NCBI GenBank assembly: GCA_021813585.1
Contig: JAKAJV010000071.1
Location: 1-55,121 of the forward strand
Source of the DNA: Bacteroidota bacterium
Lineage (GTDB): Bacteria > Bacteroidota > Ignavibacteria > Ignavibacteriales > Ignavibacteriaceae
Reading direction: 5' to 3'
Length of the DNA: 55,121 nt
Both the position numbers and the translations under genes were made by a program. Below are positions 28,161 to 46,615 of the stretch, in pieces. The first letter of the stretch is position 1; each line of letters begins with the position of its first letter. Below the pieces are notes generated by a model that did not search any database, had not been told where the DNA came from, and worked only from the letters and a program-made list of their open reading frames with translations.

Positions 28161-28640
28161 TTGAAAAATCAACAACACATATTACTGAAGGAGCTTTATG
28201 AAGAGTTTTCCGGCGACATATACCGATACGCATTCAGCCTGCTTAGAGATGAAGAAGAAGCAAAAGACTCTGTGCATGAAGTGTTCTTAAGATATTTTAA
28301 GAATATGGATTCCTTTAGAGGTGATTGCAGCAATAAGACTTGGCTGTTTACAATTACCAGGAATTATTGTTTTGACAGGTTAAAAAATAAAAATTTCAAT
28401 CATCATAAAATTGATGACCCGGATATAAACGATACTTATCAGCCGGATTTCGAAATGAAGATTTCTCTTAACGACGCATGTAAAAAATTAAATGAAGAAG
28501 AAAACGAATTAATCTTTCTTCGGGATTATGCAGGCTATTCTTATAAGGAAATCGCAGAACTAACCGGCTACTCCAGGGATAATATTAAAATAAAGCTTTT
28601 CAGAGCTAAACAAAAATTGTTAAAATTTTTAAGTGAATGA
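28161..28640 (+). CDS. ECF sigma factor
   Basis: A 159-aa alternative sigma factor of the extracytoplasmic-function group. Region 2 (IYRYAFSLLRDEEEAKDSVH, TWLFTITRNYCFDRLKNK) and region 4 (ENELIFLRDYAGYSYKEIAE, YSRDNIKIKLFRAKQKLLK) are clear. The only in-frame start covering region 2 is a TTG at 28161 with a weak ribosome-binding site; the ATG at 28198 is out of frame. The next gene, 12 bases on, encodes an anti-sigma factor with a zinc motif and one membrane span, so activity is probably released by an envelope signal. The regulon is unknown. Confidence 0.9.
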   Translation: MKNQQHILLKELYEEFSGDIYRYAFSLLRDEEEAKDSVHEVFLRYFKNMDSFRGDCSNKTWLFTITRNYCFDRLKNKNFNHHKIDDPDINDTYQPDFEMKISLNDACKKLNEEENELIFLRDYAGYSYKEIAELTGYSRDNIKIKLFRAKQKLLKFLSE

Positions 28641-28652
28641 TGAGAGAGAAAT

Positions 28653-29123
28653 ATGCACGACAATGAATATTCGATTTTTAAGCTTGTTGAAGGAGATCTG
28701 GATTCAAAAGAAAAGTTGGAACTGCTAAATCATATTGATAATTGCCCTGAGTGCCGGGAAATTTTATCGCGGTATAATTCAATTAAAGGAACAGATAAGA
28801 CGTATTACGGCTCGCTAATATTACCGGAGGATGCTCAAAATGATTTAACTCGGCTTAATACTGAATTGAAAAAGAGGAAAAATATTTCTTTAGCTTACTT
28901 CTCTGCGGCAGCGGCAGTAATAATAGGATTTATTTTGGTTTTATCTTTGTCGCTAAACAAAGTTAAGCAGTACAATCAAAACGTTGAAGTTAAAAATGTT
29001 CTTGTACAAAATACAACAAATAATACCTTATCGCCTGAACCAGATAAGTGGGATATGTCGGTCTATTCACTTAACAGACAGATAAATATAATTATGGATA
29101 ATATTGCAGAAAATCCTCTGTGA
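28653..29123 (+). CDS. Zinc-finger anti-sigma factor
   Basis: A 156-aa single-span membrane protein. The N-terminal cytoplasmic domain carries the ZAS motif HX3CX2C (His27, Cys31, Cys34 in NHIDNCPECREIL), which binds the cognate ECF sigma. A transmembrane helix spans about residues 90-110 (AAAAVIIGFILVLSLSL), leaving about 45 residues in the periplasm. Position, spacing and domain order all point to control of the sigma factor just upstream. The short periplasmic tail (NVEVKNVLVQNTTNN) may be the site of regulated proteolysis, which is inference. Confidence 0.87.
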   Translation: MHDNEYSIFKLVEGDLDSKEKLELLNHIDNCPECREILSRYNSIKGTDKTYYGSLILPEDAQNDLTRLNTELKKRKNISLAYFSAAAAVIIGFILVLSLSLNKVKQYNQNVEVKNVLVQNTTNNTLSPEPDKWDMSVYSLNRQINIIMDNIAENPL

Positions 29124-29152
29124 AGATAAAATAAAAGGAAAGGGAATTAAAA

Positions 29153-29926
29153 ATGTTTACTAAGAAGAAAATTTTGATTACCGTATTTGTAATTTGTGCT
29201 TCAGTTATTTCTTTTGCCCAAACCGGTAAGCTAGCCGGACAATTAACCGATGCAACTACAGGCAAGCCGTTAGTAGGGGCAAATCTTAGTTTAACGGGGA
29301 CAAATATTGGCTGCGCAACAGATCAGGAAGGTAAATATGTTATGTTAAAAATTCCTTCCGGCACTTACAGCTTAAATGCAAATTACGCGGGATATAAATC
29401 CGTTTTGGTTCAGGATATAAAAATAAAAAGCGGACTGGTAACTGAATTAAACCTTGCTTTGCGCCCATCCGGTGAATTTGAGCCGGATTCAAAAACGGAA
29501 GCATTGTACCGTAAAAACTTGCCAAAAAAAATAATCGAACAGCTAGATAAAATTAGAGAAAATGATAAAGAAAAATATAGGAAGCTTCTTCAGGAGTATT
29601 ATTACAATATCCTTCTGAAAATAGATGAAAAAAGCGCAGAAAGCAGGCAAAGAGAAACTAAAATTCTTGAGCTGAATATAAAAGCGGAAATACTTGCAAA
29701 TATTTATAAATCGTCAAAGTCTGCTGAAAAAGAAAAGATAAAGACTGAATTAAGGAATACGTTAGTTGAATTATTTAACGAGATGAAAAATCAGCGAGTT
29801 GATGATGTAAAATATTTAAAGAACAAACTGGAGCTTCTTGAGAGGTCGTTGAGAACATATGAAGGAGATATGAATAAACTGGTAGAGAAAAAATTGGAAG
29901 AGATGCTTAATGAGAATAATAAGTAA
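29153..29926 (+). CDS. Exported carboxypeptidase-regulatory-like domain protein with coiled coil
   Basis: A 257-aa protein with signal peptide (cleavage after ISFAQ), a carboxypeptidase-regulatory-like beta domain at about 25-100 (GKLAGQLTDATTGKPLVGAN, then YSLNANYAGYKSV), as found at the N-terminus of TonB-dependent receptors, and then about 140 residues of lysine/glutamate-rich helix predicted to be coiled coil. No receptor barrel or plug follows, so it is not a TonB receptor. It is third in the sigma/anti-sigma operon and may be a target or sensor of that system. The combination of domains is unusual. Confidence 0.78.
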   Translation: MFTKKKILITVFVICASVISFAQTGKLAGQLTDATTGKPLVGANLSLTGTNIGCATDQEGKYVMLKIPSGTYSLNANYAGYKSVLVQDIKIKSGLVTELNLALRPSGEFEPDSKTEALYRKNLPKKIIEQLDKIRENDKEKYRKLLQEYYYNILLKIDEKSAESRQRETKILELNIKAEILANIYKSSKSAEKEKIKTELRNTLVELFNEMKNQRVDDVKYLKNKLELLERSLRTYEGDMNKLVEKKLEEMLNENNK

Positions 29927-31808: not shown

Positions 31809-32453
31809 CTAAATTATTCCCTCTTTTAATGCTTTAACTACAGCCTGCGATTTTGAATGCACATGAAGCTTTTCGTAAATATGCCGGATGTGGTTCCGTA
31901 CGGTTTGAAGACTAATGAAAAGCTTCGCGGAAATTTCGTTATTATCCAGCCCGTTTACTATTAAAGAAAGTATTTCGTGCTCTCTTTCCGTAAGCGGATC
32001 TTCTTCGCTCTTTAGCGATACATGCTCTTTAAATAATTCCAGTGCCTGCTTTGCTATGCTCGGCGTCATCGGGGAACCCCCGGCAGCGGCATCTTCTACC
32101 GCCTGTATTAAGCGTATAGGTTGTGTTTTCTTTAATATATAGCCGTCTGCACCGGATAAAATAGCATGAAAAATATTTTTATTGTCATCAAAGACGGTAA
32201 GCATAACTATTTTTGTTTCAGGATATTGTGCCTTTATTTTACCGATGCCTTCAATGCCCGACATGCCCGGCAGGTTAATATCCAAAAGAACGACATCGGA
32301 TTTAGGCATAGTTTCTAGCGCTTCTTCTACCGAAATATATTTGCCCACACACTGAAATCCCTCTGTGGATTGCAGGATATAATAAATGCTTTCGCGGAAT
32401 TCCTTGTGATCTTCTATTATTGATACTTTAATGCTCATATTCAATAGGTTCAT
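31809..32453 (-). CDS. NarL/FixJ-type response regulator
   Basis: A 214-aa two-component regulator. The receiver domain (about 8-125) has phospho-acceptor Asp58 (VVLLDINLPGMSG) and the conserved Lys in YILKKTQP; the LuxR-type helix-turn-helix (about 148-212) reads LTEREHEILSLIVNGLDNNE and TVRNHIRHIYEKLHVHSK. The ATG at 32453 is used here; an internal ATG at 32438 (MSIKV) is possible. It lies 49 bases downstream of the FG-GAP/ASPIC histidine kinase gene, whose HisKA_3-type transmitter is the class that pairs with NarL regulators. The target genes are not evident; the porin gene upstream on the same strand is a candidate. Confidence 0.92.
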   Translation of the reverse strand: MNLLNMSIKVSIIEDHKEFRESIYYILQSTEGFQCVGKYISVEEALETMPKSDVVLLDINLPGMSGIEGIGKIKAQYPETKIVMLTVFDDNKNIFHAILSGADGYILKKTQPIRLIQAVEDAAAGGSPMTPSIAKQALELFKEHVSLKSEEDPLTEREHEILSLIVNGLDNNEISAKLFISLQTVRNHIRHIYEKLHVHSKSQAVVKALKEGII

Positions 32454-32502: not shown

Positions 32503-35500
32503 TTACGTCATTTTGCACGATAAGCTTATTCTTGTTCCCCTGCCGGGGGAGGATTCTATCCTTAACTGCCCATTAATTTCCTTTGCTCTGTGTGCCATGT
32601 TTATTAAGCCGTGGCCGTGCAGAGAGCTTAATTGCACTTTTGAAATAAGCCGGCCCTGCCCGTCGTCAAATAAATATTCGTCTACAGGAAATCCGACACC
32701 ATCATCCTCAAGAATCAGATCCAGGTGTTTATGATTAAGCCTGGCTGTAAATTTTACCTTAGAGGGACGCGCATATTTTGAAATGTTGTTTATCGCTTCC
32801 TTAAAAATCAAATATACATTCCTTCGTACATCTTCCGGAAGCGAAATATCTGGCTCGTCAACCTCATTTATAATTTCGTGTGCTATCTGGTTAGTTTTAC
32901 AGCAGTCGCTTATAAATCTTCTAATGCGAAGCACCAGGTCGTCCATTTTATCGTGGGTAGGAGAAACCGCCCAGACAATATCCGTAATCGCCTCCGAGGC
33001 TTCCGAAAGCAGGCCGCCTATCTTTTGAATCAGGTCGGATTCTTCCTCGGAAGGATTTTTAATTAATCTTCTCAGTGCCTCATTATATATTACGCTGCTG
33101 CTCAGTGTGGATGCTAGGTCGTCGTGCAGATCGCGTGCAATTCTATCCCTGGTAGCCTGTTTCTCCAGCTTATTTATTTTTGCAAGTATTACTCTTTCGT
33201 ATATAAGATGGATAATTGCAAGCATAACAAAGACGCTTATAATCGGAAGCAGGTCGGCCAGTATAAAATTCTGCCGGTCTATAAGTAAAATTTGAATCCA
33301 ATAAATAAGGAGCGCAGCCGAGTGAAAAATAAATTGCTTTGTAATCCGCCAATTGTATTTTTTCTTTCCGCGGTATGCAGAAAATGAGATTAGTAATAGC
33401 ACTAGAATAAACTTCAGCGTTTCCCTGTGCACATCCGGATCGGATATTATTCTGCTCAGCGCTTTGGAGAATAGAGTGATTCTTGCACCGGCGTTTTCTT
33501 CTTCGCTTACAGTTAATGTAGTTCCGGCGGAAATATTCGACAGAGTTCTTTTTATTCCGCTGGCGGGAAAGTATATAACCGCATCAAGTTTATTTGTGCT
33601 GCCGGTGCCGAAATGTACCTCCCTTGCGCTGTATGAGCCGTACCCCGATCCGCCGCTTATTTCGCGGTAGCCTAGAAGATAATTTTTATCTCCGGCATGC
33701 CCTGCTTTATAAATTTTAATTTGTGTACCCACCGCATCGCGGTTGCTTATAGTGCCCTTAACATTAAGCTTTAAGAAATTTCTGTTGTTGCAGTTATTCA
33801 AAAATAAAATGCTGTTGCCTCCCAGATAGTTAGCTACGTAAAGGTCAACGTCGCCGTCGTTGTCTATATCGCCCGTTGCACAGCCTGTGCTGTAGCCGCC
33901 CATCTGTGCGCCGTATTCTGCAGTCATCGGGACTAATTTTTTACCGCCGATATTCTTATAGAAAACATTATCTCCCACATTCGCAACATACAGGTCCTGG
34001 TAGCCGTCCTGGTCAAAGTCTGCTGCTGCAGCGCCGTAGCTCAGCATAGAATCTATTCCGATAACCTGCTCGGTAACATCTTCGAACCTGCAATTGCCCA
34101 AATTGTGGTAAAGCCTGTTCGATCTTTTCCGGCTTGTAACAAATAAGTCGGGCAGCCCGTCATTGTCGTAATCAAAGAAGACTACGGCATTGCTTTTTGA
34201 AAAGCCTTCACCTCCAACTCCGGCCGAATCGGTAATATCTTCAAAAAGGACTTTGCCTTTTGCAGAAACATTATGATAAAGCAAATTGTGTTTAGCCCAG
34301 TTGCATACAAAGAGGTCAAGCTTGCCGTCGCCGTCGATATCGCAGAATTCGGCTCCCATTCCGCCGCCTTTGGAAATAAGTCCGGCGCTGCCGGTAACTT
34401 CTGTAAAATATCCGCTCCCGTTATTTAAGTACAGCCTGTTGGTAGAATTCTCATTTGTAATGAACAAGTCCAAATCGCCGTCATTATCCACGTCTCCGAA
34501 TACCGCCGCATTGGTCCTTTCATTTTCTCCAATACCTCTGTTTGCCTCATTGGAAACATTCCTGAAGTAACCGTTGCCGTTATTAAGCAGCAGTTTGTTC
34601 TTGCCTAGCAGGTTGCATAGATAAATATCCAGGTCGCCGTCGTTATCAACATCTGCAAGGCCCACTCCCAGGTCCAGTTCTCTAAAATTCACGCTGCTTG
34701 TATCATTAGATACCCCGGTAACGCCGCGGGCGGAGGCTTCTTCGTTAAATAACGGTGATTGAATTCTGCCGGTCGTATCGAATTTGGAAATATTTATATA
34801 AAGCTTGTTGGGATCGAAAATGCAAACAGCGTATACATCTTTTAGACCGTCGTTATTTATATCGTCTATTGCAACTCCATACTCATCAACTATATCCTTG
34901 CTTGCCGAGCTTATCTTAACCGGGTTGAAACCCATCTCCCTGTTTTGCGATTTGTTTTCATGGGCGGCGGCGTAATGCAGAATCATTCCGTCATTTCCAA
35001 CTATCCAGCCTTCTGAAGGCGAGACCATCGCTAGGTCTGCATACTCGTTCATTTCCGGTGAGTTCACCTTCTCCCATTTTTTCAAATTCCAGTGGACAAC
35101 CAATCCCTTCGAGCCGATTCCCCAAATCTCACCATCCGGCAGAAAGGAAAGTTTAAAAACATCTTTTAAATATTCGTTTTCAGAGTGTGTAGAAAAATTC
35201 AGTCTATCGTACTTTATTAATTTACCGGAAGTTAAAAAGTAAGCTACAGATGGGCTTTCAAAATAGGCTTGAATGATTTTTTCATCTTTCAAGTAGCGGG
35301 TCCAGGTCGTTCCGTTAAAATAGAATAATTTTAAATCGTTGGTAGTAACCCATGCCTTACCTCCGGCAAGTGGATAAATGAAGTTAATAGCGGCGTAGCT
35401 GTCGGGGAAAGGTACAAGCTTCCAGGAGCTGCCTTCTCGCCTTGCAATTTCCCTGTCGCCGCCTATCCACTCAATTCTATTCTGCGAGAATGCGATGTAG

Positions 35501-35907
35501 GTAACTGCGTTGGCAAACGGCATGTCTACTTCTTCCCACTGCCTGCCGTTAAAATGAAATACTTCCGATTCATTATAATTCGTAAAGTAAGTTATCCAGA
35601 GACTGCCCTCTTTATTTACAAACATATCTGTAATTCCCGGTATATCCGGCTGCAGCTCCAGCTTCTTCCACTCTCTACCGTCATAGGAAGAAATAGACCT
35701 GCCTAAAATATATCCGGCTCTAGGCGATATCATTATTATCTTGTGGAGATTGTTAATAGAAGGCGACTGGAACAGCTCCCAGGTGGCTTTCAATCCGGAA
35801 TTATTCCCGGCAGATTCATTCGGAAACGAGCGGTCAATGGTCTCAAGATCGTTAGCCGGAAATATTGATAATGTTAATAAGAATAGTCCCCGAAATAATA
35901 ATTTCAT
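32503..35907 (-). CDS. Histidine kinase with propeller, FG-GAP and ASPIC/UnbV ectodomain
   Basis: A 1134-aa fusion. After a signal peptide, residues 40-330 are propeller-like repeats (GSLWITYFT, GKAWVTTNDLK, EGWIVGNDG). Residues about 335-725 carry seven calcium-loop FG-GAP/VCBS repeats (DINNDGLKD, DVDNDGDLD twice, DIDGDGKLD, DYDNDGLPD, DFDQDGYQD, DIDNDGDVD). An ASPIC/UnbV domain follows (about 735-815: FLKLNVKG, SGYGSYSAREVHFG, as in CRTAC1 proteins). Three transmembrane helices (about 840-905) lead to a HisKA_3 transmitter with His928 (RDLHDDLAST) and a HATPase domain ending GHGLINMAHRA. With the signal peptide cleaved, three spans put the ectodomain outside and the kinase inside. It sits next to a NarL regulator. 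The ligand is unknown. Confidence 0.92.
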   Translation of the reverse strand: MKLLFRGLFLLTLSIFPANDLETIDRSFPNESAGNNSGLKATWELFQSPSINNLHKIIMISPRAGYILGRSISSYDGREWKKLELQPDIPGITDMFVNKEGSLWITYFTNYNESEVFHFNGRQWEEVDMPFANAVTYIAFSQNRIEWIGGDREIARREGSSWKLVPFPDSYAAINFIYPLAGGKAWVTTNDLKLFYFNGTTWTRYLKDEKIIQAYFESPSVAYFLTSGKLIKYDRLNFSTHSENEYLKDVFKLSFLPDGEIWGIGSKGLVVHWNLKKWEKVNSPEMNEYADLAMVSPSEGWIVGNDGMILHYAAAHENKSQNREMGFNPVKISSASKDIVDEYGVAIDDINNDGLKDVYAVCIFDPNKLYINISKFDTTGRIQSPLFNEEASARGVTGVSNDTSSVNFRELDLGVGLADVDNDGDLDIYLCNLLGKNKLLLNNGNGYFRNVSNEANRGIGENERTNAAVFGDVDNDGDLDLFITNENSTNRLYLNNGSGYFTEVTGSAGLISKGGGMGAEFCDIDGDGKLDLFVCNWAKHNLLYHNVSAKGKVLFEDITDSAGVGGEGFSKSNAVVFFDYDNDGLPDLFVTSRKRSNRLYHNLGNCRFEDVTEQVIGIDSMLSYGAAAADFDQDGYQDLYVANVGDNVFYKNIGGKKLVPMTAEYGAQMGGYSTGCATGDIDNDGDVDLYVANYLGGNSILFLNNCNNRNFLKLNVKGTISNRDAVGTQIKIYKAGHAGDKNYLLGYREISGGSGYGSYSAREVHFGTGSTNKLDAVIYFPASGIKRTLSNISAGTTLTVSEEENAGARITLFSKALSRIISDPDVHRETLKFILVLLLISFSAYRGKKKYNWRITKQFIFHSAALLIYWIQILLIDRQNFILADLLPIISVFVMLAIIHLIYERVILAKINKLEKQATRDRIARDLHDDLASTLSSSVIYNEALRRLIKNPSEEESDLIQKIGGLLSEASEAITDIVWAVSPTHDKMDDLVLRIRRFISDCCKTNQIAHEIINEVDEPDISLPEDVRRNVYLIFKEAINNISKYARPSKVKFTARLNHKHLDLILEDDGVGFPVDEYLFDDGQGRLISKVQLSSLHGHGLINMAHRAKEINGQLRIESSPGRGTRISLSCKMT

Positions 35908-36122: not shown

Positions 36123-37346
36123 TTAGAAAGCGACTGAAAACTGCGTGATAAATCCGTGAAACCTTGCATTGTTCCCGAACTTCGATTTAACCGGGAAATT
36201 TTTGTACTGCTGGTTTACATACTCAAGCTTAAGCAGCATTGCTTTTGTTACCCAAACGCCGGCGCCTAATTGAACCCGGCTTGCGCTTACCGGGTTTGCG
36301 CTTACATCAATACCCTGGTACATGCTCGAGGAAGCTGCGCTGTATCTTGCAGCCATGTACAAAGCGGGGAATATGTAATAGGTAATGTCGCCGCCGTAGT
36401 ACGACCAGCTTTCCTGCGGGGTGCCGGGTGCGCTGCCGTTTATATCGGCGTCTTTCGTATAGCCGTACATGCCGAATATTTTTACCGGCTTTAAATTATA
36501 GAATCCGTCGAACTGGTATGCAGTTACGTTCTGGCCTTTTTGAGGTGCAATGTCTCCGGCTTCGGGATCGTCGCCGAAAATTCCCGAGTATTGGCTTCCG
36601 CTCCTGTTGCCTGCATACAGGTCTGTTGTAGAGCCGCCTGCAGGGTAACCGGTACCGTTGTTTGCCTGGTTGGATCTGTAAACAGACGCAGCTATATTAA
36701 GCTGGTTATGCAAATCCAGCCATACTTTAGCATTTACTTCGTTTCCTCTTCCGGGCGTAAAGTCGCCGGTGGTTGTACCGTCGCCGAAAGCCACCAATGC
36801 ATTGAACAAGGCTGGCTTGGTTTTAATTTCAAGTGAAGGCTCAACGTCGTTTGCATCTACAATGTAGTTGCCAATAAGAGGATTCCTCTGAACGTCTGCA
36901 TTGTCTGATCTTATTTCCCACCATAAGCCGTAGTCAACCGGGATAAAGCCTGCCTTCAAAGTAAAGTACTTGAATAAAGAATTGTTTAATCCAAGTATAT
37001 CCGAGGATTCCGGCAGCTTGGATATTGTTATATAGCCTTCATCATCGTACCATTGGCCTACATGGTGGTTGCTGCTTAGGAATGCATTAAAGAAAACATC
37101 TATGCCGTCTGCAATGTGGGCTGAAAAATTCAAGTTGCCTCTGGCGCTTTGAAAGCCCCAGGGTATTTTGGGCATATTGTGCAGGTCGTTATCCTGCTGC
37201 AGGTATTGTATTGCACCGGATGTCACTCCCGTGATCTTTAATATTTGTTTTGTGCTTGATGTGTCGTTATTTTCCTGTGCTTTTATATTAGCGGAAAACA
37301 TAAGCAATGCTATTATCGATATGAATAAAACACTAAGTCGTTTCAT
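36123..37346 (-). CDS. Porin-like outer-membrane protein
   Basis: A 407-aa protein with signal peptide (cleavage after NIKAQ) and a 16-strand-like porin pattern ending in phenylalanine (FITQFSVAF), the signal for BAM recognition. Segments such as KYFTLKAGFIPVDYGLWW, NEVNAKVWLDLHNQLNIAAS and YYIFPALYMAARYSAAS alternate in barrel fashion; glycine- and asparagine-rich stretches are probable loops. It resembles phosphate-selective or general porins of the PorO/P kind, but specificity cannot be inferred. AGGAG precedes the ATG. It diverges from the YceI genes across a 374-base region with a paired operator-like palindrome, and is followed by hairpin repeat copy 2. Confidence 0.78.
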   Translation of the reverse strand: MKRLSVLFISIIALLMFSANIKAQENNDTSSTKQILKITGVTSGAIQYLQQDNDLHNMPKIPWGFQSARGNLNFSAHIADGIDVFFNAFLSSNHHVGQWYDDEGYITISKLPESSDILGLNNSLFKYFTLKAGFIPVDYGLWWEIRSDNADVQRNPLIGNYIVDANDVEPSLEIKTKPALFNALVAFGDGTTTGDFTPGRGNEVNAKVWLDLHNQLNIAASVYRSNQANNGTGYPAGGSTTDLYAGNRSGSQYSGIFGDDPEAGDIAPQKGQNVTAYQFDGFYNLKPVKIFGMYGYTKDADINGSAPGTPQESWSYYGGDITYYIFPALYMAARYSAASSSMYQGIDVSANPVSASRVQLGAGVWVTKAMLLKLEYVNQQYKNFPVKSKFGNNARFHGFITQFSVAF

Positions 37347-44001: not shown

Positions 44002-44751
44002 CTACTTCAACATTTCCTTCAGCTTATCATACCCGCTTTTGCTTACAGGCAGTGCAGTCTTGTCTTCCAGCAAAACCCTGTAGGATTCCTTTTCAAGCAG
44101 TTCGATTTTTTTAATTCTGTTTACGGCAGCAATGTAAGAGCGGTGTATCCGGACGAAATCTTTTGGATTAAGGTGCAGCTCAAAATACTTCATTGTTTTT
44201 TGCTTTAAGAACTTCCCTTCGTCGGAATAAATCATCACATAGTCGTCCTGTGCCTCAAAGTATTTTATATTTTCCGCCGGTACTATCGATATTTTTGTCC
44301 CGTCCTTAATTATCACTCTTTCGATGAATTCGGTCTTTTCTTCATTCTGCTTAATTAAGTTTTTGATAACCGTCCTTTGATGCGACTTATCGCGCAGATA
44401 CGCAAATGCTTTTTCCAGCGCCTCGTCAAATCTATCTTTGGAGTAAGGCTTAAGCAGGTAGTCTGCCGCATTAACCTCGAATGCCTTGAGCGCGTACTGA
44501 TCGAATGCGGTAGTAAAAATAATAACCGGCGGCTCATCAATTAATTCAAGCATCTCAAAGCCGTTAATCCTCGGCATTTGAATGTCTAGGAAAATCAAAT
44601 CCGGTTTTTCTTCATTTATTTTCTTTATTCCTTCAAAGCCGTTCGAGCATTCGGCGGCAATAATTATTTCCTCCCGGTCGGCAAGGTACCTTTTAATAAT
44701 TTCCCGCGCCAGGCTTTCGTCGTCTATTATTATGGTTTTAATTGGTTCCAT
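44002..44751 (-). CDS. LytTR-family response regulator
   Basis: A 249-aa regulator. The receiver domain has phospho-acceptor Asp56 (LIFLDIQMPRING) and Lys in YLLKPYSKD; the LytTR DNA-binding domain (about 145-249) reads IKYFEAQDDYVMIYSDEGKF and FVRIHRSYIAAVNRI. The internal ATG at 44751 is chosen because the receiver starts there (MEPIKTIIIDD); the extension to 44799 adds 16 unlikely residues. It is last in an operon with a LytS-type kinase (82-base gap) and a LiaF-like protein, and by analogy responds to cell-envelope stress. Confidence 0.92.
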   Translation of the reverse strand: MEPIKTIIIDDESLAREIIKRYLADREEIIIAAECSNGFEGIKKINEEKPDLIFLDIQMPRINGFEMLELIDEPPVIIFTTAFDQYALKAFEVNAADYLLKPYSKDRFDEALEKAFAYLRDKSHQRTVIKNLIKQNEEKTEFIERVIIKDGTKISIVPAENIKYFEAQDDYVMIYSDEGKFLKQKTMKYFELHLNPKDFVRIHRSYIAAVNRIKKIELLEKESYRVLLEDKTALPVSKSGYDKLKEMLK

Positions 44752-44833
44752 TTTATTTTGTCTGCTAAAAGAAAAAGATTGCTTGAGAATTAGCGGCAAA
44801 GAAAGAATTCTGTACTGCTAATATAAAAATTAT

Positions 44834-45883
44834 TTATACGGGGATATACAGCAGAACCGTAAAAAGATTTTTTTCTTTCTTAATTTGTAAGAGGTCCGGC
44901 TGATTGTAAATAAGCTCTAACCGGTTTTTAATATTCCGGATTCCGATTCCTGCCCCTTTTTTAGCAAAGGTAATTTCATCATCATAATTATTCTGAAGCA
45001 TAATCTTAAAGTAATTTTCTTCTTTATTGCACGTCAGCTTCAAAGTTACTTTTTCCAGCGCTTCATACACGGCATGCTTAATCGCATTTTCGAACAGCGG
45101 CTGTAAAATCATATTCGGAATAAGAACACTAAGGCAGCAGTCTTCTACTTCCTCAACATAATCAAACTTATCTTCGAACCTGATTTTTTCTATATCTAAA
45201 TACAGCTTTATATTCTTTAGCTCTTCACCCAGGGAATTTTTCTGTATATCGTTGTTCGCAAGAGTAAAGCGCAGAAAGTCTGCCAGCTTTAGAATCATCT
45301 CTCTAGCCTTTGAGGGATTTATGGAAGTAAGAGCGCTCATGGAATTTAAACTGTTGAAAATAAAATGAGGATTTATCTGGAATTTTAGAGTCTTTAGCTC
45401 GGCTTCCGTTATCAGGTTCTTTAACTCGGACTCCTGGATTATTTTCTGCTGGAAATTTGTGTAATAAATAAATAAATAATAGAACGCCGTTATTGAATAG
45501 TAGAAGAGCGCTCCTATTGCAAACCGCCAGATAATTGTAGCCTCAAAATATTCTTTAAACCCGGCAGCAAAATTCATCAGTCCGGTAATTATTAAATACC
45601 CCAGCGCCAGCCAGAGTACGGAAGAAATAATGCCGCCCAAAATATGGCTGATGATGAAAGTTGTTTTATTGTTTTCAAGGGAAATAAACCTTGCCGGGAA
45701 CCAGTAGCTAATTCCGAACCCGGCAAGTATTAAATCGAAAACCAGGCTGTCTGCCAGCGCAGTCTCGGTTATCAGACCGGCTCCAAAGTGGAGAAGACAA
45801 AAGTCAACTGCCGCAAGAACGAGCCAGCCTGTCAAATAAAAAATTAGGTTTCTTGTTTTTTCGAGTATCGGGTTGCTAAACAT
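44834..45883 (-). CDS. LytS-type sensor histidine kinase
   Basis: A 349-aa membrane kinase with four predicted N-terminal transmembrane helices (about 12-150), a short coiled coil, then the His_kinase domain with phospho-acceptor His173 in FQINPHFIFNSLNS and a HATPase domain (ILQPLFENAIKHAV; GAGIGIRNIKNRLE). It lacks a large periplasmic sensor, so the signal is probably within the membrane or passed on by the LiaF-like protein encoded 12 bases upstream. It should phosphorylate the LytTR regulator downstream. Confidence 0.92.
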   Translation of the reverse strand: MFSNPILEKTRNLIFYLTGWLVLAAVDFCLLHFGAGLITETALADSLVFDLILAGFGISYWFPARFISLENNKTTFIISHILGGIISSVLWLALGYLIITGLMNFAAGFKEYFEATIIWRFAIGALFYYSITAFYYLFIYYTNFQQKIIQESELKNLITEAELKTLKFQINPHFIFNSLNSMSALTSINPSKAREMILKLADFLRFTLANNDIQKNSLGEELKNIKLYLDIEKIRFEDKFDYVEEVEDCCLSVLIPNMILQPLFENAIKHAVYEALEKVTLKLTCNKEENYFKIMLQNNYDDEITFAKKGAGIGIRNIKNRLELIYNQPDLLQIKKEKNLFTVLLYIPV

Positions 45884-45895
45884 TTTATTTTTCTG

Positions 45896-46615
45896 TTATA
45901 CGTAAACAGGTTTAATCTCGCCGCCGCCGAATATCGTTACTCCTTTTATAATTAATGTCCGGGAAGTATCGACAGCAGTGCCGGGCTCCCGCCTAACCTT
46001 ATTTGAAAATCCTCCGAATATCGGCGCAACGCTTACACGTATGTCCCAGTCCCTTGGTACTAGAAACGTAACGCCGCCGAATAAGAAGAAGACATCGATA
46101 ATATTATCTCCGGGCGCAAGCCTGCTGTGGGACAGGTCTATTTCGAAGCCGCCGAAAATTGCAGTTAGGTTTCCGCCTTTAAAGTTTTCAGATACAATTG
46201 CTTTATGGCCGCCGCCAAAGATTGTTATTTCGTCAAGAGTATCGCGTGTGGCATTCCGTTTAAGCTTATCCTTATAAAATGCCCAGTTCAAAGGGCGCTT
46301 AAGCAGGATGTATACGCCGAAGGTAATGATTAAAACCGGGAACAAAATATCGCTGCTGTAGTGAACTGCCGGAAAAATCCTGGGCACAAGAAACAATCCT
46401 CCAAGGAATACCAGCAGAAGACCGAGTGTTTTGTTGGTTGAATGCATCAGAACTATTAAACCCACAATAAAAACAAAAAAGGGGAGTGAGAAAATAATGT
46501 CTGATATGTCAACGTTTATAATTGTTAACGTATTTAATAAATAAAGGCCGCCCACAAGAATTAAAAGCAGTCCTATAAATATTCTCGAGTTAAATTTATT
46601 TCTTTCGCTTTCCAT
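45896..46615 (-). CDS. LiaF-like membrane protein
   Basis: A 239-aa protein: an N-terminal membrane part of four helices in pairs (IFIGLLLILVGGLYLLNTL, LPFFVFIVGLIVLM, TLGLLLVFLGGLFLV, ILFPVLIITFGVYILL) and a C-terminal beta-helix-like domain (about 130-239) with repeating IFGG motifs (TIFGGGHKAI, AIFGGFEIDLS, FLFGGVTFLV, PIFGGFSNKV, TIFGGGEIKPV). In Bacillus LiaF inhibits the LiaRS system. Here it is the first gene of a LytS/LytTR operon, which suggests a similar restraining role on a different class of kinase. AGG precedes the ATG. Confidence 0.87.
   Translation of the reverse strand: MESERNKFNSRIFIGLLLILVGGLYLLNTLTIINVDISDIIFSLPFFVFIVGLIVLMHSTNKTLGLLLVFLGGLFLVPRIFPAVHYSSDILFPVLIITFGVYILLKRPLNWAFYKDKLKRNATRDTLDEITIFGGGHKAIVSENFKGGNLTAIFGGFEIDLSHSRLAPGDNIIDVFFLFGGVTFLVPRDWDIRVSVAPIFGGFSNKVRREPGTAVDTSRTLIIKGVTIFGGGEIKPVYV

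Follow-up and report, generated by a model that had tools for sequence, protein, structure and literature searches.

A family of receptor histidine kinases whose CRTAC1-type double-propeller ectodomain looks like a plug-in sensor module with relatives on other kinases

CRTAC1-like/ASPIC domains have a broad distribution that reaches from bacteria to animals; we know of no settled molecular function for them. Ycf48, a soluble propeller protein, is an assembly factor of photosystem II. HTCS sensors have one membrane helix, against three in the protein described here. Propeller-bearing Ser/Thr kinases of bacteria include those of the PknD type; to our knowledge, no version of a propeller common to a Ser/Thr kinase and a histidine kinase is known. 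PMC3243724 describes HTCS with a fused receiver and AraC domain, and PMC1262709 describes bacterial Ser/Thr kinases with PQQ and WD repeats; the terms FG-GAP, VCBS and UnbV are absent from the main text of the latter.

The window, by which we mean the whole 55,121-nucleotide stretch analysed, carries on its minus strand a frame at 32503-35907 that begins with ATG, contains no internal stop and encodes 1134 residues. A Ycf48-like propeller is followed by an FG-GAP propeller, an ASPIC/UnbV domain, three transmembrane helices, HisKA_3 and HATPase_c. A preliminary description had read these parts in one uninterrupted frame; the frame, Pfam and a structure model bear this out and confirm a receptor-kinase architecture at this position. 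The features are as follows.

32503-35907, minus strand: receptor histidine kinase gene, 1134 aa (single open frame, Pfam, 20 same-architecture homologues)
35848-35907, minus strand: probable signal peptide, aa 1-20 (model helix 2-14, at low confidence there)
34969-35784, minus strand: Ycf48-like seven-bladed propeller, aa 42-313 (28 strands in the model, phmmer, Foldseek; Pfam YCF48 sub-threshold)
33796-34929, minus strand: FG-GAP seven-bladed propeller, aa 327-704 (PF13517 1.2e-45, 28 strands in the model, CRTAC1 9etn)
34837-34863, minus strand: calcium-type loop 1, aa 349-357, DxNxDGxxD
34627-34653, minus strand: calcium-type loop 2, aa 419-427
34468-34494, minus strand: calcium-type loop 3, aa 472-480
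34315-34341, minus strand: calcium-type loop 4, aa 523-531
34147-34173, minus strand: calcium-type loop 5, aa 579-587
33994-34020, minus strand: calcium-type loop 6, aa 630-638
33844-33870, minus strand: calcium-type loop 7, aa 680-688
33511-33735, minus strand: ASPIC/UnbV domain, aa 725-799 (PF07593 1.5e-9; placed identically by genome search)
33193-33438, minus strand: three-helix membrane bundle, TM1 824-851, TM2 855-875, TM3 from 881 (model helices, homologue hydropathy, related bundle in types IIb and III)
32956-33150, minus strand: HisKA_3 dimerisation/phosphoacceptor domain, aa 920-984, with His928 at 33124-33126 (PF07730 1.6e-8)
32512-32823, minus strand: HATPase_c, aa 1029-1132, including the residues of the N, G1 and G2 boxes (PF02518 2.5e-11)
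31809-32453, minus strand: partner NarL-type response regulator, likely acceptor Asp58 at 32280-32282 (Response_reg 2.7e-23, GerE 1.7e-20)

The FG-GAP, UnbV_ASPIC and HisKA_3 profiles, which the preliminary description had proposed as a check, all scored above their Pfam cut-offs: 154 bits against 26.9 for FG-GAP_3 (with FG-GAP itself at 4.1e-14), 38.1 against 23.4 for UnbV_ASPIC and 35.4 against 24 for HisKA_3, with HATPase_c at 44.4 against 26.4. Pfam YCF48 (PF14870) reached 21.9 bits, below its cut-off of 27. Residues 69-310 of the front propeller matched the Ycf48-like 5ojp by phmmer against the PDB (1.4e-7) and Foldseek matched this propeller to 5ojp_B (2.9e-11, TMt 0.68), while the model places 28 strands (7 × 4) across 42-313. 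As had been asked of a predicted structure, the modelled ectodomain contains two seven-bladed propellers, and residues 323-808 superpose on murine CRTAC1 (9etn_A) with Z 41.2 and rmsd 2.6 over 448 residues, the next rows standing at 27-28; phmmer against the PDB gave CRTAC1 at 5.4e-19. The second-best Foldseek hit was the ectodomain of the heparin-sensing HTCS BT4663 (4A2M, 1.6e-18), with YCF48 lower in the list. The pLDDT is mostly 80-95 in the ectodomain and 83.2 overall; the relative placement of the domains is unsure because the pTM is 0.56 and the whole-chain superposition of BT4663 is poor (rmsd 21.7, TMq 0.25).

Seven loops of the form DxDxDGxxD had been claimed, and seven are there, six of them fitting strictly and loop 1 departing at its third position. 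All 147 copies (seven loops in 21 proteins) retain the first and last aspartate, and the loop residues stay invariant when 14 secreted, kinase-less CRTAC1-like proteins are aligned as well. The calcium dependence that the preliminary description ascribed to the propeller is a prediction from these conserved loops. PMC3123361 counts stabilisation among the usual functions of calcium sites like these, and a structural role for the loops is more likely than a signalling one. We do not equate the best-conserved part with the ligand site, because the calcium loops by themselves keep the propellers conserved. Three transmembrane helices, as previously proposed, are present in the model; a hydropathy scan at 1.6 recovers three in most homologues, not all, and in the window protein only the last two. 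TM3 belongs to a continuous model helix (881-948) that extends into the kinase.

The kinase half is of the HisKA_3 (NarX/DesK) type by its profile, its histidine, its N, G1 and G2 boxes and its NarL/LuxR-type partner, its activity being predicted from sequence. His928 had been named correctly as the phosphoacceptor and is invariant in all 21 aligned proteins, as are N1041, D1068, G1070, G1072, G1098 and G1100 of HATPase_c and, in the regulator, Asp58. The regulator lies 49 bases downstream, exactly as reported, and Pfam identifies its Response_reg and GerE domains. No receiver or AraC domain was matched in the kinase chain by Pfam, and no PADLOC model matched the kinase at E 0.001. A defence role was also considered and set aside: PADLOC matches of the regulator and of a related Ser/Thr kinase (type III, below) were confined to helix-turn-helix, receiver or Ser/Thr kinase parts and were read as generic.

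The architecture recurs in other genomes. Twenty homologues share it at 34-56% identity, 19 of them full-length, and the histidine kinase with a propeller, FG-GAP and ASPIC ectodomain is a family and not a one-off. We refer to these HisKA_3 receptor kinases as type I, to related receptors with an F-x-H-G output as types II and IIb, and to those with a Ser/Thr kinase as type III. A NarL gene adjoins the kinase in all 21 assessable type I loci (the window included; one kinase, L039, has lost its 5′ end at a contig edge), across gaps of 8-238 bases (median 60). Receptor-kinase and regulator distances correlate for each segment of the receptor kinase (r 0.80-0.83), and none of 2000 permutations was as high. 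Median pairwise identity within type I is 0.50 for FG-GAP plus ASPIC, 0.38 for the kinase, 0.27 for the transmembrane part and 0.26 for the front propeller. By genome search, all 12 type I genes had ASPIC above its cut-off; in the protein scan it fell below threshold in three distant members (L059, L060 and L063). Profiles and recurrence thus support the earlier proposal of a HisKA_3 kinase that takes its input through this ectodomain and has a NarL regulator as its partner. The claim of an undescribed sensory architecture holds insofar as, among the matches listed, we found no description in open papers of a HisKA_3 kinase under a propeller, FG-GAP and ASPIC ectodomain; what changes is that the protein belongs to a family and, more important, that two further kinase types carry relatives of its ectodomain (below).

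The preliminary description had further proposed that an adhesion propeller of secreted proteins was converted into a sensor, which our results do not favour. In 11 type I genomes, 18 of 19 ASPIC matches lie within receptor kinases. The window's own genome has ASPIC, at E 0.001, in two receptor kinases only, on which ground we rejected recent recruitment from a secreted paralogue of the same genome; secreted ASPIC proteins do occur in other genomes of the order. In a 52-row tree, a supported branch (99/94) parts receptor ectodomains from secreted CRTAC1-like proteins, although this tree is unrooted and the order of the two states cannot be read from it. Because ASPIC sits nearly always on receptor kinases and this branch separates the groups, no recent conversion from secreted protein to receptor is visible. 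An 82-row quick tree likewise placed the secreted rows on one side (SH-aLRT 91), but put type III beside them (94) and grouped IIb_G045 with type II (98). In the 52-row tree type III joins IIb (95/88), so that the position of type III differs between the two trees. The 52-row tree omits 30 of the 82 rows: seven type I, five type II, six secreted and 12 that were long or odd (IIb_G045, IIb_G094, IIb_G014b, S_L076, S_L094, S_L095, S_L106, S_L111, S_L134, SI_L033, SI_L035 and SI_L037).

Related ectodomains and membrane helices are found on two more outputs: an unusual F-x-H-G/HATPase histidine kinase, mostly alongside an NtrC-type regulator, and a Ser/Thr kinase (type III), mostly alongside a receiver-less GAF-sigma54 activator. 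By sequence, then, relatives of the ectodomain are common to two other kinase types. In profile comparison any two propellers tend to match. Front-propeller profiles gave 99.5% for I-III, 25.7% for II-III, a poor match, and 3.3% for II-IIb, no match at all; the IIb and III segments were placed by their offset from an incomplete FG-GAP hit, which leaves their borders rough. Membrane-bundle profiles gave 95.4% for I-III, 97.8% for I-IIb and 72% for I-II, and 1.5%, i.e. no match, for IIb-III; column-shuffled controls, 10 each for I-II, I-III and II-III only, gave at most 1.5%. The bundles exceeded all 75 unrelated three-helix controls in 8/8 type III, 7/8 type IIb and 3/11 type II proteins, which suggests a weak relation of the type I bundle to that of type II. 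Among the eight type III proteins scanned, PF14870 was above cut-off in all and ASPIC in one; genome search found ASPIC above cut-off in three of the four type III genomes it covered. Type III candidates came from 25 genomes: 21 gave matches of almost full length, that of G154 containing an in-frame TGA, three gave fragments (G152, G155 and G146), and the last was G118 (L190), which carries a Reg_prop/Y_Y_Y sensor instead.

The type I kinase class occurs under Reg_prop/Y_Y_Y sensors in L057, L031 and L032, the gene next to the L057 kinase being a NarL regulator 62% identical to that of the window, and the Ser/Thr kinase of L190 is 47% identical to the type III kinase. Because both kinase classes also sit under Reg_prop/Y_Y_Y, the ectodomain reads as an alternative, swappable double-propeller receptor module. 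We think it likely that the Ycf48-like and CRTAC1-type propellers, with or without ASPIC, and the three-helix bundle form a transferable bacterial module for at least three outputs, that its Reg_prop/Y_Y_Y counterpart is interchangeable with it on the same kinases, and that CRTAC1-type domains act mainly in signalling in the genomes that carry it. The ectodomain appears to be a plug-in sensor module not described before.

Taking the observed architecture, conservation, gene pairing and sharing across kinases together with the predicted fold, we infer the topology, phosphotransfer, ligand class, role of calcium and regulator targets as follows. With high probability, the protein is an inner-membrane receptor histidine kinase with double propeller plus ASPIC as its input, a relay from His928 to Asp58, and a sensor that serves as a swappable alternative to Reg_prop/Y_Y_Y. 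Its periplasmic part would be a double seven-bladed propeller followed by the beta-rich ASPIC domain, the fast-evolving Ycf48-like propeller standing in front of the strongly conserved CRTAC1-type FG-GAP propeller. A ligand, perhaps an oligosaccharide or other polymer or a surface protein, would make contact mainly at the variable front propeller or in the cleft between the propellers, and binding would shift the stack. The ASPIC end may relay this movement to the three-helix bundle, whose third helix, with no recognised HAMP domain, would run into the HisKA_3 helix bearing His928. Trans-autophosphorylation of His928 would precede transfer to Asp58 of the adjacent regulator, whose GerE domain would then bind DNA. 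The propeller would most probably be stabilised by the calcium-type loops.

Other readings were weighed against this receptor mechanism. The receptor might monitor envelope secretion, sensing type IX-secreted surface proteins or their assembly while the regulator controls them. Genes with a type IX tail lie next to the pair (within 1.5 kb) in six of 15 type I loci with flanks, and Pfam itself detects the tail in those six (6/9 neighbours scanned). Tails were more frequent among immediate neighbours than among genes further off, both for type I (6/27 against 4/133; Fisher p 0.0018) and for all four types together (16/71 against 19/246; p 0.001). However, the test was set up post hoc, after the neighbours had been seen, with a tail profile partly trained on them; taken singly, types II, IIb and III gave p 0.14, 0.43 and 0.58, with 0/15 immediate neighbours for type III; genomes are rich in type IX cargo, each with 47 to at least 145 matches; and none of the window's 40 genes of at least 150 aa has such a tail. 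We regard this reading as doubtful and the type IX neighbours as a lead only to the target. In the syntenic loci of the same genus, L038 and L040, the pair adjoins OmpH-like and DPP IV genes, in L040 also a YceI gene, and neither locus offers a clear conserved neighbour that names a target; L040 lacks a counterpart of the window's gene at 36123, and the L038 locus comes without its upstream flank.

An integrin-like adhesion receptor, for which contact with another cell or surface is the signal, would suit the FG-GAP propeller, and the fold search lists integrin alpha-V headpieces among its next hits, at Z about 27. Yet spliceosomal and COPI propellers, which are unrelated, score just as high in that search, so these matches show a common fold only, and an inner-membrane protein of a Gram-negative cell would presumably face the periplasm and not a partner cell; we find this reading quite improbable. 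Less probable still is a calcium sensor signalling through loop occupancy: the constancy of the loop aspartates in all copies would agree with it, but the loop residues are equally invariant once the secreted, kinase-less proteins are aligned, and stabilisation is a common role of such sites. As for a frameshift or assembly error joining two genes, nothing was found in its favour and the 20 homologues from other genomes carry the same architecture, which excludes a frameshift or chance fusion for practical purposes.

The receptor mechanism would give the CRTAC1-type domains a measurable output. No other part of the receptor is as conserved as these domains, and the kinase readout could therefore lead to their ligand. 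One receptor common to histidine and Ser/Thr kinases, each with its matching kind of regulator, and the same kinases also under Reg_prop/Y_Y_Y, would make a natural set for studying double-propeller transmembrane signalling. Automatic naming can also be corrected, as ASPIC in such genomes often indicates signalling.

The window protein can be set beside its closest known counterparts. Reg_prop/Y_Y_Y sensors and HTCS (BT4663) likewise have two seven-bladed propellers and then a beta-rich domain ahead of the membrane, and the former share its HisKA_3 kinase class in L031, L032 and L057; both Reg_prop and Y_Y_Y were matched in these three and in L190, and neither was matched by Pfam in the window protein at E 0.1. 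HTCS fuse a receiver and AraC domain to the kinase, whereas the window kinase has a separate NarL regulator. Kinases of the DesK/NarX type with NarL regulators have the same kinase half (DesK 3gig, 2.8e-6) under a wholly different sensor part. Ycf48 (5OJP, 2XBG) has the fold of the front propeller and no kinase, and the propeller-bearing bacterial Ser/Thr kinases join a beta-propeller to a Ser/Thr kinase, as type III does. Murine CRTAC1 (crystal structure 9ETN) and its secreted bacterial relatives combine an FG-GAP propeller with ASPIC, one fold over 323-808, but lack such a front propeller, a membrane bundle and a kinase. Because three membrane helices and a kinase come after it, the window protein shares the CRTAC1 domain but is not a CRTAC1 protein.

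The receptor histidine kinase gene of the window occupies a single open frame, as the preliminary description had held, and the NarL-type regulator gene, recognized by Pfam, follows at the spacing given there:

32503-35907, minus strand: receptor histidine kinase gene, 1134 residues, uninterrupted frame
31809-32453: NarL-type regulator gene, 49 bases beyond the kinase gene

The FG-GAP, UnbV_ASPIC and HisKA_3 profiles proposed for the kinase all matched above their cut-offs, as did FG-GAP_3 and HATPase_c; the YCF48 model stayed under its own. A sequence search against solved structures returned animal cartilage acidic protein 1 (CRTAC1, 9etn; 5.4e-19), the Ycf48-like 5ojp over residues 69-310 (1.4e-7) and DesK 3gig (2.8e-6). 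An AlphaFold2 model (mean pLDDT 83.2, pTM 0.56, 22 rows) places 28 strands in residues 42-313 and another 28 in 327-704, which we read as two predicted seven-bladed propellers, a Ycf48-like front propeller and an FG-GAP propeller. Seven further strands span 711 to 801, followed by a helix (805-822). Residues 824-851 and 855-875 are modelled as two membrane helices; the third (881-948) leads out of the membrane and enters the HisKA_3 domain. The ASPIC domain of CRTAC1 has a transthyretin-like fold. Foldseek ranked CRTAC1 first (4.4e-23) and the heparin-sensing ectodomain of BT4663 second (1.6e-18; rmsd 21.7 over the chain), with a YCF48 match at 2.9e-11. When Foldseek's own list was examined a second time, murine CRTAC1 superposed on model residues 323-808 with Z 41.2 (rmsd 2.6, 448 residues), and the rows after it reached only 27-28. 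The ectodomain originally proposed agrees with the model. Of its seven DxDxDGxxD loops, all are present, but only six keep the strict pattern. The window protein is genuine and well formed, and it belongs to a receptor family.

We termed this architecture type I and searched for it in the window's order in two surveys, one of 97 and another of 164 genomes. In the latter, 22 genomes matched at 1e-60: 16 contain type I genes (17 in total), five contain only the type II form described below, and one (G070) retains only the kinase end, cut by the contig. Type I also occurs in another family of the class (G551) and, among the best 80 matches, on contigs titled Ignavibacteriales, Bacteroidales, Chlorobiaceae, Bacteroidota or Bacteroidetes (L058-L064, of which L058, L062 and L064 were judged the same contigs as G039, G021 and G032). 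At the same threshold, 18 genomes matched in a class sample of 294, and five, all from the window's order, in an even phylum sample of 395. The homologues are 34-56% identical to the window protein. The linkage to a NarL regulator, suggested as a check in other genomes, was found throughout: a NarL-type regulator is the next gene on the same strand in 21/21 distinct type I loci, counted as those with a kinase body and a readable 3′ flank, the window included (the kinase of L039 is cut 5′ by its contig). Outside this set are G156, whose kinase runs off its locus (L140), and G070, which also has a NarL-type regulator. Across the 21 loci, the intergenic gap is 8-238 bases (median 60); His928, the proposed HisKA_3 phosphoacceptor, is invariant, as are the tested N, G1 and G2 box residues and Asp15, Asp58 and Lys108 of the regulator. 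Distances between kinase segments correlate with those between regulators (r 0.80-0.83; 0/2000 permutations as high), the pattern that joint inheritance of the pair would produce. In a quick 82-row tree, shorter branches separate the type I genes of L039 (G012:C269) and L138 (G130), and likewise those of L013 (G001) and L014 (G091), which come from different families of the order, than separate either from the genes of its genus mates; this possibly reflects gene transfer between lineages, or contamination in the case of the 4-kb G012 contig.

Within the 21 type I proteins, the FG-GAP and ASPIC part has a median pairwise identity of 0.50, against 0.38 in the kinase, 0.27 in the membrane part and 0.26 in the front propeller; the regulator reaches 0.58. 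A sensor better conserved than its own kinase is unusual. Each of the seven loops retains its opening and closing Asp in every protein (147/147 copies); the strict pattern is kept in two to six loops of each of the other type I proteins. Metal loops may account for part of this conservation; they are likewise invariant in the secreted proteins that were aligned. A PF07593 search of 14 genomes (E 0.001) gave 25 matches, 19 of them in the 11 type I genomes. Receptor kinases account for 18 of these 19, including both in the window's genome, and a 485-aa frame in G084 for the other. The three genomes chosen for types III and IIb (G065, G077 and G078) contribute six, of which four fall in frames as long as secreted proteins (594-784 aa). 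Together with the 97-genome search, these frames establish that secreted ASPIC forms occur within the window's order.

The second ASPIC protein of the window's genome (L002, contig C85; 505-4377, minus strand; 1290 aa) has FG-GAP, ASPIC and HATPase_c domains and no HisKA match in Pfam, and its gene adjoins an NtrC-type regulator with a receiver. The 164-genome survey contains 11 genes of this architecture, type II, in 10 genomes. An NtrC-like gene is adjacent in nine, downstream in eight and upstream in G122, a call that rests on a short C-terminal match; it lies 5 kb off in G014, and none was seen in the short flank of G156. A shorter form, IIb, represented by eight genes picked from the 97-genome search rather than surveyed, has an adjacent NtrC-like regulator in 8/8. 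These calls were made by BLAST, with the receiver checked by Pfam in L050 and L151. Types II and IIb have homologous kinase parts (282 columns, 5.6e-44), and an F-x-H-G motif is invariant right after the last membrane helix in 11/11 and 8/8 (e.g., L002, L151 and L150). It is probably the phosphoacceptor; Pfam HisKA models miss this region, which is possibly an uncatalogued phosphoacceptor domain. A Deltaproteobacteria contig (L065) encodes FG-GAP, ASPIC and HATPase_c, with GAF and HisKA slightly under cut-off.

In type III, the output is a Ser/Thr kinase (Pkinase 1e-57 or better, with HRD, DFG and APE motifs, in 8/8 scanned). FG-GAP_3 and YCF48 exceeded their cut-offs in all eight, ASPIC in just one when the proteins themselves were scanned. 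Type III occurs in 24/164 genomes of the order, three of them with fragments; a twenty-fifth listed genome was excluded as having another sensor. Of the 22 cases that could be assessed, 17 have a GAF-sigma54 activator without a receiver next after the kinase gene, at most ~730 bases on, and two more have it 2.6 and 4.4 kb off; none was seen within the flanks at hand in the remaining three. The activator was checked by Pfam in three loci, with no receiver or FHA match, and identified by BLAST elsewhere:

L149:9094-10827 (also in L154 and L155): GAF-sigma54 activator, 577 aa, near or beside the Ser/Thr receptor kinase

Profile comparison of the front propeller gave 99.5% for I-III, 98.2% for IIb-III, 97.4% for I-IIb and 95.2% for I-II, with low values for II-III (25.7%) and II-IIb (3.3%). 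For the membrane part, the values were 97.8% (I-IIb), 95.4% (I-III), 72.0% (I-II), 49.6% (II-III), 24.7% (II-IIb) and 1.5% (IIb-III). With columns shuffled, the controls for I-II, I-III and II-III (10 per pair) were all at or below 1.5%. Because shuffling destroys hydrophobic runs, single sequences were also scored against the type I membrane profile: 8/8 type III, 7/8 IIb and 3/11 type II scored above all 75 unrelated three-helix segments, which reached 5.9 bits at most. By both measures, the case for a related membrane bundle is convincing for I with IIb and for I with III, and no more than suggestive for type II. An unrooted tree completed for the FG-GAP/ASPIC region with 52 of the 82 rows splits into three groups: 18 secreted proteins on one side of a branch (99/94), types I and II with L065 (99/99), and types III and IIb (95/88). 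All 34 receptor rows are thereby separate from the secreted ones; the quick 82-row tree placed type III differently. As II and IIb share a kinase and their ectodomains fall in different groups, the sequences suggest that outputs have been exchanged between ectodomains.

Type IX tail genes are over-represented beside type I pairs (6/27 immediate neighbours vs 4/133, p 0.0018) and across all types (16/71 vs 19/246, p 0.001) in a test made after the fact; the enrichment is not significant for II (p 0.14), IIb (p 0.43) or III (p 0.58) singly, the window's pair has no such neighbour, and type IX cargo is frequent in the genomes checked. We regard it as a lead to function. Type IX-secreted proteins adjoin the kinase-regulator pair in L042, L043, L044, L045, L046 and L047, three with DUF7619 and the others with LamG, subtilase or Kelch domains. 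Upstream of the window kinase gene, on the same strand, 36123-37346 encodes a 407-aa product that we read as outer-membrane-barrel-like; nothing in Pfam matches it, its one NCBIfam match, to a barrel model, is sub-threshold, and locus L040 of the same genus lacks a counterpart of the gene. Two further gene rows stand elsewhere in the window. The row at 44002-46615, perhaps a LiaF-type envelope-stress system, encodes a LytTR regulator, a kinase of the His_kinase family and a membrane protein resembling LiaF; the row at 28161-29926 encodes an ECF sigma factor, a zf-HC2 anti-sigma-like protein and a CarboxypepD_reg-like protein.

The Reg_prop/Y_Y_Y ectodomains of HTCS recognise oligosaccharides, according to PMC3243724, and by analogy we take the window protein to be a ligand-gated receptor, in which the variable front propeller would provide specificity and the conserved CRTAC1 part would pass the signal on. 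The best-matching scanned kinases with another ectodomain (L057 and L032, 42%; L031, 40% over the kinase) carry Reg_prop and Y_Y_Y sensors, and the NarL regulator of L057 is 62% identical to that of the window. In L190 (G118), Reg_prop and Y_Y_Y form an HTCS-type sensor joined to a non-histidine kinase, a Ser/Thr kinase that shares 47% identity with that of type III. The HisKA_3 and Ser/Thr kinase classes are therefore each found under both double-propeller sensors. The architecture had been put forward as a candidate for an undescribed one, and no description of an FG-GAP/ASPIC histidine or Ser/Thr kinase appeared in the titles and abstract openings of the open papers listed; such proteins may well have been annotated automatically. 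PMC3123361 concerns calcium blades, and the word kinase is absent from the portion consulted; part of PMC1262709 served for comparison with the type III kinases. The kinase and regulator of the window pair are ordinary; the novelty seems to lie in the receptor module and in its use by several outputs.
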